A DNA stretch of 40,021 nucleotides from an uncultured Bacteroidales bacterium (GTDB lineage: Bacteria; Bacteroidota; Bacteroidia; Bacteroidales; FEN-979). The first letter of the stretch is position 1. Each line of letters begins with the position of its first letter. The notes beneath the pieces were generated by a model. The model was given only the letters and a program-made list of their open reading frames with translations, searched no databases and was not told the origin of the DNA. Below, piece after piece: positions 6,388 through 16,631 of this stretch. The DNA is taken from contig CAJAUM010000103.1 in assembly GCA_903945175.1 (NCBI GenBank), positions 1-40,021 on the forward strand, written 5' to 3'. The translations under genes and the position numbers were made by a program.

Positions 6388-7152
6388 ATGCAAGAATCTA
6401 CTTTTTTTCTGATCGTTTATGCCTGGATTGCCATTGCGATTTTTATTTTTCCGATCGTCATTCGTATCGTAGCGCCCTACGGTCGTCACACCAGTATGAA
6501 ATGGGGCGCCATGATCGATAACCGGGCTGGCTGGATTTTGATGGAATTGCCGGCACTGCTGGTTTTTGCCGGTTTTTACCTTTTCGGTTCGGGCACTCAT
6601 CCGACCGTAACCTGGATTTTTTTCGGCATGTGGGCGTTGCATTACATCAACCGTACCTTTATATTTCCCTCCCGCCTTCGCACCAAAGGAAAAAAGATGC
6701 CGCTTGCCATTGTTTTTATGGCCATCGGATTCAATTTCGTCAACGGATTTATCAATGGATATTACCTGGGGTCAATTGCGACCGAAGCACAGTATCCGGT
6801 ATCTTACCTGGCAGATCCACGGTTTATTGCCGGTTTTCTCATCTTCTTCTTTGGCATGTTTATCAACTGGCAGTCAGATAACATTCTTATTCATTTGAGA
6901 AAGCCGGGAGAAACAGGGTATAAAATTCCCCAAAAGGGATTTTTTCGTTATGTCTCATGTCCAAACCATTTTGGTGAAATAGTCGAATGGTCAGGGTTCG
7001 CTTTGATGGTTTGGAGTTTGCCTGCACTGGCTTTTGCAATTTGGACTTTGGTAAACCTGATGCCGAGGGCGATCCACCATCACAAGTGGTATAAAGAAAC
7101 ATTCCCTGAATATCCTGCCAAGCGCAACGCACTCATTCCTTTTATTTTTTAG
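6388..7152 (+). CDS. Steroid 5-alpha-reductase/DUF1295-like integral membrane enzyme
   Basis: 254 residues with about six hydrophobic segments. The C-terminal part shows the steroid-dehydrogenase family signature: GFFRYVSCPNHFGEIVEW near residues 180-200, and HHHKWYKETFPEYPAKRNAL followed by the hydrophobic end. Known: these membrane enzymes reduce an activated C=C bond with NAD(P)H. Members include eukaryotic SRD5A, enoyl reductases and gut-bacterial 5-alpha-reductases. Length matches the family, and both ends look complete. It is 11 bp after the SDR gene and is followed by a non-coding gap that holds a convergent RNA candidate, whose hairpin could stop transcription from either side. The physiological substrate (sterol, steroid, fatty acyl or polyprenyl compound) cannot be decided from sequence. 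Confidence 0.82.
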   Translation: MQESTFFLIVYAWIAIAIFIFPIVIRIVAPYGRHTSMKWGAMIDNRAGWILMELPALLVFAGFYLFGSGTHPTVTWIFFGMWALHYINRTFIFPSRLRTKGKKMPLAIVFMAIGFNFVNGFINGYYLGSIATEAQYPVSYLADPRFIAGFLIFFFGMFINWQSDNILIHLRKPGETGYKIPQKGFFRYVSCPNHFGEIVEWSGFALMVWSLPALAFAIWTLVNLMPRAIHHHKWYKETFPEYPAKRNALIPFIF

Positions 7153-7159
7153 TCGCCGC

Positions 7160-7480
7160 ATAAAACACCGATGGGAACCGCCTCTGGCCGAAGTGGTTCC
7201 CATCCCGTCATCAGTTGCCGTGGCCTACCGATGCGTTCAAGCTACTGTTATTGAGGCTGGCTTATTCAGGTTGGGTCTCCCCTCCCCTTTCTTCCCGATC
7301 CGTTTCTTCGGCAGCCCTTGCGGACCACTTGGGAATTGGACCCTGTTTCAAAAACCTGCTCTTTATCCACTTAAACCTTGCGGCCTAAGTTTCTCTGTTG
7401 CGTGGTCGGGAGTGCTGGTACCATACGGATCCTACTTTCACCTTCCTGTTTTTGATGCGGACCTTTTATCGCTCGCTTGA
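7160..7480 (-). ncRNA. Candidate structured RNA of about 320 nt, family not identified
   Basis: The 430-bp gap 7153-7585 lacks a credible protein but has the parts of an RNA gene on the minus strand. There is a consensus promoter just upstream (7485-7516), dense helices, and a strong terminal hairpin (7170-7204). Visible helices include two GCAA-tetraloop stems: CTTAGGCC-GCAA-GGTTTAAG (near 7392-7373) and GTGGTCC-GCAA-GGGCTGC (near 7328-7311). Both use G-U pairs that only work if the minus strand is the transcript. There is also a long-range pair GGGTC/GACCC extended by AGGTT/AACCT, and GATCCG/CGGATC. A segment CGACCACGCAACAGAGA resembles part of bacterial RNase P RNA, but the universal P4 strands and other conserved blocks of RNase P were not found. 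No tmRNA, SRP or 6S signature was found either. Transcript ends are approximate. Confidence 0.6.
7170..7204 (-). terminator. Terminal hairpin of the RNA candidate, possibly bidirectional
   Basis: A perfect 10-bp inverted repeat, GATGGGAACC (7170-7179) with GGTTCCCATC (7195-7204), has a 15-nt loop that can pair further. On the minus strand a short T-rich run (GGTGTTTTA) follows. On the plus strand it lies 18 bp after the stop of the 5-alpha-reductase-like gene and could also end that transcript. Confidence 0.55.
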
Positions 7481-7484
7481 TTTT

Positions 7485-7516
7485 CAAATATACATTAACA
7501 GAATAGGCGGATGCAA
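7485..7516 (-). promoter_or_regulatory. Bacteroidota-type promoter for the RNA candidate
   Basis: On the minus strand, TTG (7516-7514) is followed after 21 bp by TATATTTG (7492-7485), which matches the TAnnTTTG -7 consensus. Transcription would start about 5-8 bp further on, near 7478-7480. No open reading frame of believable composition follows it. Confidence 0.6.
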
Positions 7517-7585: not shown

Positions 7586-7858
7586 TTATTCGATGGTGGC
7601 CGTTAAACCACGCAGCATCATTTCATCACACAAAGGCTTTATTTCATGATACCCCCCTGATTTTACATTGCATTTTCCTTTGAAATGGGCAATCATGGCG
7701 CATTGTTCTGCTTGTTCCGGTTCATGACTGCATACTTCAATCAAAGATTGGATAACAAAATCGAAGGTATTTATTTCATCATTAAAAAGGATCAGATCCC
7801 GGAGAATTTCAGAACTGTCCTGATTAACAGACGAAGGGCTGTTTTTGTGTTTGACCAT
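7586..7858 (-). CDS. clpS: ATP-dependent Clp protease adaptor ClpS
   Basis: 90 residues. ClpS brings substrates with destabilising N-terminal residues (N-end rule) to the ClpAP/ClpCP protease in the cytoplasm. The family core is clear: LILFNDEINTFDFVI (residues about 23-37), then the helix EQAEQCAMIAHFKGKC and the end HEIKPLCDEMMLRGLTATI. These correspond to the N-degron pocket residues (Asn-Asp-Glu, and the Met/His region). The length is slightly under Proteobacterial ClpS but normal for Bacteroidota. A -7 box (TAATTTTG on the minus strand, 7884-7877) lies 19 bp before the ATG. No clp ATPase gene is in this window, so its partner is encoded elsewhere. In these bacteria aat, found at 19690 here, adds such degrons. 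Confidence 0.93.
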   Translation of the reverse strand: MVKHKNSPSSVNQDSSEILRDLILFNDEINTFDFVIQSLIEVCSHEPEQAEQCAMIAHFKGKCNVKSGGYHEIKPLCDEMMLRGLTATIE

Positions 7859-16083: not shown

Positions 16084-16104
16084 AAACGGTTTTTTGTATA
16101 TAAA

Positions 16105-16134
16105 AAAAGCTTTTTTCCGTAGAAAAAAGCTTTT
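16105..16134 (-). terminator. A/T-rich hairpin between DUF4295 gene and ftsY
   Basis: A perfect 12-bp inverted repeat, AAAAGCTTTTTT (16105-16116) with AAAAAAGCTTTT (16123-16134), has a 6-nt loop. It lies 21 bp after the DUF4295 stop and 21 bp before the ftsY start. The A and T runs make it a plausible terminator or attenuator in either direction. The low GC of the stem lowers certainty. Confidence 0.5.
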
Positions 16135-16154
16135 CAGTCAGAATGAAAATTGGT

Positions 16155-16316
16155 TTAGCTCTCTTTGTTTGCCAAAAAGTCTTTTAACATTTCATTGGCA
16201 ACAATGGTTTCCCTGAAAACAAACGCATCAGATTTCTTAGATTTAACCATGCGGATGACTTTTGTAAAATCTTTTCCGGAGGTAGCTTTAAACGAAGCAA
16301 CTACTTTCTTTGCCAT
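16155..16316 (-). CDS. DUF4295 small protein
   Basis: A 53-residue protein read directly from the minus strand between ftsY and rpmG: MAKKVVASFKATSGKDF, then KVIRMVKSKKSDAFVFRE and the end LKDFLANKES. Basic, with no signal peptide. Known: DUF4295 is a Bacteroidota-specific small protein always found directly after rpmG. It is thought to be ribosome-associated from this position, but its function is not established. The gap to rpmG is 8 bp, so the two are surely co-transcribed. It is easily missed by gene callers because of its size. Confidence 0.88.
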   Translation of the reverse strand: MAKKVVASFKATSGKDFTKVIRMVKSKKSDAFVFRETIVANEMLKDFLANKES

Positions 16317-16324
16317 ATCGTAAG

Positions 16325-16513
16325 TTATTTAATTTCTTTATGAACGGTAATTTTCTTTAAATAGGAATTGTACTTCTTCAGTTCAATTCTTTCAGGTGTA
16401 TTTTTTTTATTTTTAGTTGTAATGTATCTTGAGATACCGGGAATGCCGCTTGTCTTCTGTTCAGTACATTCTAAAATAACCTGAATACGTTGATCTTTGC
16501 TCTTTTTTGCCAT
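16325..16513 (-). CDS. rpmG: 50S ribosomal protein L33
   Basis: 62 residues. Small large-subunit protein near the E site. The motif VILECTEQK and the stretch [22 protein letters not shown] are diagnostic. Only one of the Cys residues of the zinc-binding form remains, so this is a Cys-poor type. A strong consensus promoter (16542-16572) precedes it. In many Bacteroidota rpmB (L28) is immediately upstream. Here rpmG is the first gene of the transcript and the xerD gene, divergent, takes that place, so rpmB must be elsewhere. Confidence 0.95.
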
Positions 16514-16541
16514 CTTATGACTTCTTTATTTTTCGGGACTG

Positions 16542-16572
16542 CAAAATTAAACCATTATCCTGAAAAAACAAA
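16542..16572 (-). promoter_or_regulatory. Bacteroidota-type promoter for rpmG-DUF4295
   Basis: On the minus strand, TTTG (16572-16569) and TAATTTTG (16549-16542) are exactly 19 bp apart, an exact match to TTTG-N19-TAnnTTTG. The rpmG ATG (16513) lies 28 bp downstream of the -7 box. Confidence 0.7.
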
Positions 16573-16609
16573 AATTATTTCATACTTTTATTTCTCGTTT
16601 GAAATAATT
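16573..16609. repeat. 10-bp inverted repeat in the rpmG/xerD divergent region
   Basis: AATTATTTCA (16573-16582) and TGAAATAATT (16600-16609) form perfect arms with a 17-nt spacer. The left arm directly abuts the -33 box of the rpmG promoter, and the right arm is 22 bp before the xerD start. It could be an operator, or chance in A/T-rich DNA. Confidence 0.35.
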
Positions 16610-16631
16610 ATAAATCCTTACAGATCAGACC

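Follow-up and report, generated by a model that had tools for sequence, protein, structure and literature searches.

A free-standing structured RNA gene of the class Bacteroidia without a match in Rfam 15

The RNA gene and its parts

The window, that is, the whole stretch of 40,021 nucleotides that we analysed, comes from an uncultured Bacteroidales bacterium. A free-standing structured RNA gene occupies positions 7161–7483 on its minus strand. The stop of the ClpS gene (7586–7858) lies 106 nt upstream of the promoter of the RNA gene (minus strand), and the Steroid_dh gene (6388–7152) is arranged tail to tail with it. From the promoter, we infer that the 5' end of the RNA should fall near 7480–7483, and the 3' end is expected at the U-rich tail. 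The parts are as follows, in the direction of transcription.

7161–7483, minus strand: whole RNA as modelled (283.6 bits with covariance model R1, which was partly built from the window RNA)
7514–7516, minus strand: upstream promoter element TTG (aligned in the 18-member alignment)
7485–7492, minus strand: TATATTTG, the Bacteroidetes-type -7 box (TAnnTTTG lies upstream of 63 of 71 5' cores)
7475–7480, minus strand: 5' strand of P1, UCAAGC (covariation counts)
7464–7474, minus strand: conserved internal loop, 5' side, GAGCGAUAAAA (core anchors, covariation counts)
7461–7463, minus strand: 5' strand of P2, GGU (covariation counts)
7259–7460, minus strand: lineage-specific central domain with several hairpins (folds and anchor distances)
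7411–7442, minus strand: arm 1 hairpin with loop GUAU in the window; most relatives in the 18-member alignment have GCAA there
7369–7390, minus strand: arm 2, GCAA-capped hairpin (fold)
7311–7329, minus strand: arm 3, GCAA-capped hairpin (fold)
7273–7282, minus strand: arm 4, GAGA-capped hairpin GGGGAGACCC (fold)
7255–7257, minus strand: 3' strand of P2, GCC (covariation counts)
7243–7253, minus strand: conserved internal loop, 3' side, CAAUAACAGUA (core anchors, covariation counts)
7237–7242, minus strand: 3' strand of P1, GCUUGA (covariation counts)
7209–7233, minus strand: P3 hairpin with a CACG loop that C-G closes; most relatives have YACG
7170–7204, minus strand: terminal, terminator-like hairpin (fold)
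7161–7169, minus strand: GGUGUUUUA tail with a U run (sequence)

The promoter stands at a fixed position. In the window, 4 nt separate the -7 box from the first nucleotide of P1, and among the 63 5' cores preceded by TAnnTTTG, the box ends 4–6 nt before P1 in 62. Shuffled upstream sequence gave this motif in only 50 of 3550 cases. The eight 5' cores without it belong mostly to Cyclobacteriaceae or Cytophagales and have a degenerate box. On the minus strand, the fold beats that of shuffled sequence (z -2.52; 3 of 100 shuffles do as well), whereas the plus strand folds no better than chance (z -0.49, 27 of 100 as good). No reading frame is kept on either strand among the 18 relatives compared, and a protein-coding gene is not supported.

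A covarying core around a variable central domain

The core found in all lineages consists of P1, an internal loop (GAGNGAUAAAA/AYAAUAACNGUA) and P2, followed by the YACG-capped hairpin P3 and a terminator. It is recognised by two anchors: YCAAGYGAGNGAUAAAAGGC opens it, and RGYCAYAAUAACNGUARCUUGRC lies close to its end. In P1, YCAAG pairs with CUUGR. The long-range pairing of the window joins 7475–7480 with 7237–7242 (P1) and 7461–7463 with 7255–7257 (P2).

Pairing in P1 and P2 was counted in 60 distinct pairs of cores. Seven of the 75 sequences with both anchors had been dropped beforehand, four for a wrong or missed 5' anchor (L030, L064, L094, L105), one for a short 3' anchor (L076) and two because the outer position of P1 holds an A, which could not pair there (L046, L049). 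The outer pair of P1 is U-A in 26, C-G in 21 and U-G in 9 of the 60, with the other 4 unpaired by this tally; counting G-U in either order, 57 are paired where 44.9 are expected, a value reached by 0 of 2000 shuffles. The A-U/G-C pair of P1 is kept in all 60 with 7 double changes (0 of 2000 shuffles). At P2, the two informative pairs are each formed in 57 of 60 (12 of 2000 and 0 of 2000 shuffles). Two pairs are unsupported: the innermost one tested in P1 forms in 50 of 60 (49.2 after shuffling), and the pair next in line in P2 forms in 18 of 60. The other pairs of both helices barely vary or lack support. The shuffles carry no correction for relatedness. In the internal loop, the A-U and G-C juxtapositions are kept in 60 of 60 and the G-A juxtaposition in 51 of 60. 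GUA facing GA is the signature of the bulged-G (loop E) motif, and loop E is here an untested candidate.

P3 is a hairpin of 14 positions after P1, its YACG cap closed by C-G, and across 40 sequences both partners have changed in 13 of the 14 pairs. For P3 and the terminator helix together, 158 cells changed on both sides compared with 59.3 after shuffling (0 of 500), and sliding the partner strand by 1–3 columns leaves a covariation score of at most 0.141, down from 0.453. A separate count of P3 used 48 sequences picked for at least 10 of 14 pairs, which inflates the percentage paired. The 72.4% pairing of the terminator helix in alignment A7 is too low because the helix was aligned in two registers. 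A further model, R2, holds three pairs only from RNAalifold and was not used for searches. P1, P2 and P3 covary, and the long-range pairing is real. A pseudoknot between CCGUAG and CUACGG was rejected; single-sequence folds give hairpin P3 there. The AAUAAC motif was absent, as searched, from L050–L053.

As an independent check, we looked at loci found by the 3' core alone. The class search gave 35 places, of which 11 were already in the set, 20 were fetched for the check and 4 were not fetched. A 5' core lies upstream in 14 of the 20, and 13 of these 14 have TAnnTTTG; shuffles gave a 5' core in 1 of 1000. It was also present at 3 of four further class loci and 3 of 6 loci of family f128. The pattern did not find it at 6 of the 20 class loci, 3 of the 6 f128 loci and 1 of the 4 further class loci.

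Between the core halves sits the lineage-specific domain, which differs from family to family. The distance from GAUA to AAUAAC ranges from 28 to 438 nt (median 221, 71 sequences), and at the class loci up to 619 nt lie between the 5' core and the model start. One locus (L212) carries a 38-nt motif four times between the core halves, spaced 102–112 nt apart, and in L049, of genus g8, the domain is nearly gone.

We notice a long central insert at L065 (1501–1997) and L074 (1501–1978), mutually much alike and unlike the others by eye, with no Rfam match. Two further loci (L209, 1328–1420; L210, 1296–1427) are shrunken, with promoter-like boxes, P3 and the terminal hairpin kept and little of the core; we read these forms as a decay series.

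Most claims of the original prediction, made from the sequence alone, are upheld by these results. It had proposed a structured RNA gene of no recognised family, perhaps a new class, which is supported by the absence of an Rfam match, the homologues, the covariation and the fixed promoter position. Its promoter, its choice of the minus strand, its GNRA-capped helices (the two GCAA arms, besides the GAGA arm), its long-range pairing and its terminal hairpin, after which we find a U-rich tail, also held. It had suggested searching Rfam with Infernal and looking for covariation among BLASTN relatives; the Rfam search gave no gathering-score match at the RNA, and relatives showed conservation and covariation, judged by shuffle tests. 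Its statement that the window has no other large non-coding gap is not clearly right in that form. The interval 16084–16631 of the window is a gap of about 550 nt, also without an ORF of 80 aa or more (shorter ORFs were left out).

Occurrence, neighbours and absence in sister species

A blastn search with the 381-nt stretch matched 19 of 100 near genomes, the window's own included (18 of 99 others). These comprise 10 of 18 other genomes of the genus and 8 of 24 listed other genomes of the family; the 57 listed genomes from outside the family gave no match. In several species of the same genus, 68–76% conservation extends over most of the RNA length. At E 0.01, R1, built from 18 members, matched 31 of 43 family genomes, many of which had supplied its training sequences. 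It also matched 52 of 247 order genomes, with E-values down to 1.3e-38 outside the family. A 3'-core model, R3, was built from 40 members outside the window's genus. It found 51 of 244 order genomes (own included; 38 of 173 genera), 32 of 395 class genomes (own included; 11 families) and 7 of 395 phylum genomes, all but the own in the single family f128, which we infer to be Cyclobacteriaceae. At E 0.001 per genome, about 0.4 chance matches are expected among 395. The genome samples overlap and were drawn evenly, and therefore give no estimates of prevalence. The 'same class' sampling appears to follow GTDB rather than NCBI classes.

A pattern scan of named genomes gave at least 117 stretches. 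Of the 80 listed, 63 match R1 below 1e-10 and 17 do not; these E-values are flattered because the loci were chosen by the core pattern. The carriers are mostly Bacteroidales MAGs and Cyclobacteriaceae. Cultured carriers are Cecembia lonarensis, Mariniradius saccharolyticus, Pleomorphovibrio marinus, Algoriphagus lacus and Cyclobacterium plantarum; for the first four, the family Cyclobacteriaceae was checked, and their NCBI class is Cytophagia. Two records titled Alphaproteobacteria (SACF01000013.1, L148) and Chlorobiota (JAADJA010000038.1, L097) also carry the RNA, in Bacteroidales-like surroundings, and are likely mislabelled bins.

Several genomes hold two copies, in tandem (G080, G197, G114) or on separate contigs (G049, G166, G217, G263). 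The tandem copies lie about 1.5 kb or 0.5 kb apart, as in L068 (7–325 and 1501–1819), at 208589 and 209073 of G197:C1, and in G114:C28. A distant blastn search with the window RNA gave no match to plasmids or phages. Two pattern hits on viral contigs are unlike the members: L219 reached 22.3 bits with neither 5' core nor terminator seen, and L220 gave no match.

No neighbour gene is common across the lineages. The commonest protein cluster adjoins the RNA in 23 of 101 loci, and it is the window's own family that supplies the largest clusters. Within clades, the position of the RNA is conserved and ordinary genes adjoin it; in other clades the neighbour is DnaG, SRAP, RelA/SpoT or a beta-lactamase-fold serine hydrolase. 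Many flanks are 1.5 kb, so that remote gene links are not excluded.

In the window's genus, 11 of 12 genomes without a full match gave the Steroid_dh gene. In four of them (G018, G012, G002, G016), ClpS ends 54, 68, 30 and 49 nt from Steroid_dh with no RNA between. Two (G032, G027) hold a shrunken form of the RNA scoring 34.9 and 30.6 bits, and the remaining ones are uninformative (for example, contig end or other context). Four sister species thus lack the RNA between conserved neighbours, which demonstrates that the gene is dispensable.

Known RNAs, possible roles and rival explanations

Neither in the window nor at 53 related loci did any Rfam 15 family match the RNA at gathering score (for sets of 20 and 16 loci, relaxed thresholds were applied as well, and the other 17 were searched at gathering score alone; some of the loci duplicate a record). 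Rfam includes OLE, GOLLD and ROOL, and none of these matched at this level either. Four gathering-level matches, to RNase P, two tRNAs and a SAM riboswitch, fall outside the RNA. We set aside as chance the following matches below threshold. In L018, mir-722 matched the terminal hairpin with E 0.11, and in L020, Phe_leader matched the 3' end with E 0.89. Chlorobi-1 reached 20.3 bits (E 0.49) within the L077 central domain, where its gathering score is 50. MIR834 reached 32.4 bits (E 0.0023) against a gathering score of 200, and this match lies next to the L076 RNA and outside it. In the open-access literature searched, including passages of PMC2864571, we recognised no matching description, and a word search of PMC11109978 and PMC8632094 found no mention of Bacteroidetes. 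Because neither Rfam 15 nor this literature holds it, we regard it as a new RNA family, although a description in print outside the literature searched is possible. Free-standing structured RNAs as a kind are already known. That a free-standing structured RNA gene of the class Bacteroidia, absent from Rfam 15, lies here is shown, and we hold it with high confidence.

Several known RNAs were compared one by one. The original prediction had hinted at kinship with RNase P, and class A RNase P RNA is alike in size, in GNRA loops and in the short look-alike stretch noted there. This hint failed: RF00010 gave no match at the locus, and the genuine class A RNA of the genome is found full-length on another contig (G000:C110, 243 bits, E 1.1e-79). 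Small SRP RNA (RF00169) gave no match at the locus, and the SRP RNA of the genome is at G000:C119. No tmRNA was found in the window by ARAGORN or at the locus by Rfam. In Y RNAs, the ends are closed by a stem that bears a conserved binding site, and the middle varies. The Bacteroidia RNA resembles them in architecture only; its core sequence differs by eye, and the TROVE (Ro60/Rsr) protein was found in 0 of 43 family genomes, with one control positive.

OLE, GOLLD and ROOL are free-standing, large and patchy in occurrence, with GNRA-capped arms and no obvious cis target, and the Bacteroidia RNA shares all these features. It differs in its core, in its occurrence in Bacteroidia and in its smaller overall size. 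These large ornate RNAs form homo-oligomers (PMC12286853).

Transcription likely runs from P1 as far as the terminal hairpin; the promoter and the hairpin are shown, and the transcript is inferred. P1, the strongly conserved internal loop and P2 fold the RNA back on itself and hold out the lineage-specific central domain of GNRA-capped or repeated arms, with P3 and the terminator after them. By inference, the conserved loop most probably binds a partner, which could be a protein or a second molecule of the same RNA, and the arms would be the variable working part. The gene would have been gained, moved or lost many times. A role in trans is proposed because no protein cluster adjoins the RNA in more than 23 of 101 loci. 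That the RNA is the trans-acting scaffold of an accessory ribonucleoprotein, with the loop binding its partner, remains an inference which we would sooner doubt than rely on, if by a small margin. The ribonucleoprotein part rests on architecture alone, and the one partner tested, of the Ro60 type, was absent. For the explanation as a whole, RNA gene and accessory trans-acting scaffold together, we see as much reason to accept as to withhold belief.

A bolder reading is possible, though we hold it less likely than not, in which the family is a class-wide RNA machine with a fixed core (P1, loop, P2 and P3) and exchangeable arms, whose forms run from a 133-nt minimal RNA to one of about 500 nt with four tandem modules. 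It might then act as a modular scaffold, in a ribonucleoprotein or an RNA-only assembly, with arms tuned to each lineage. Large structured bacterial RNAs that span many families without an assigned family are rare, and earlier ones had unexpected structures and roles. With about 100 sequences, a covarying core, minimal and expanded forms, clean absences and cultured carriers that are not pathogenic, the function is directly testable.

Among the rival explanations, the first is a selfish or defence-type element, a cassette of promoter, RNA and terminator that spreads and duplicates and is also lost again; a decoy or an abortive-infection RNA would be an example. Its patchiness among order genomes, the clean absence in sister species, the double copies and the neighbours that vary by lineage speak for it, and the patchiness alone fits such an element equally well. 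We nevertheless consider it unlikely, since the position is kept within clades beside ordinary genes, no plasmid or phage matches by distant blastn, and the two viral-contig hits do not resemble members.

Similarly improbable is a base-pairing regulatory sRNA or sponge, acting through exposed stretches of the central domain or through conserved loop strands. The promoter and terminator of its own and a context that suggests action in trans favour this idea, but the most conserved stretches are enclosed by P1 and P2, and the central domain varies between families.

We find little room for the view that these bacteria use it as their 6S RNA, the regulator of RNA polymerase. P1, the internal loop and P2 recall the 6S bubble; an internal loop between two helices is common to this RNA, 6S RNA and 6S-Flavo. 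Neither RF00013 nor RF01685 matched at the locus or elsewhere in the genome, so that no other 6S candidate is on hand; these nulls are uninformative, however, because RF00013 also misses the Bacteroides control genome and RF01685 finds none in 14 controls. Against the 6S reading stand the branched, variable central domain, the P3 hairpin, the patchy occurrence (most Bacteroidales sampled lack it, as do sister species, which does not fit a housekeeping RNA) and the 6S RNA reported separately in B. thetaiotaomicron (PMC7366714).

A ribozyme or RNase P relative, suggested by the GNRA hairpins, the conserved loop-rich core and the size, is very unlikely given the RNase P RNA elsewhere in the genome and the lack of any gathering-score Rfam ribozyme match, while the ribozyme-like activity raised by the original prediction is neither shown nor excluded.

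Two observations concern the neighbours. In one clade, a conserved protein of about 310 aa lies beside the RNA (L077, 1978–2976, and relatives), with no Pfam match at E 0.001. RelA/SpoT adjoins the RNA in six lineages, L065 (= L156), L066 (= L151), L069 (= L143), L070, L074 and L098; it lies upstream of the RNA four times and downstream twice, and in every case shares its strand. This adjacency may be chance synteny or may reflect a link to the stringent response.
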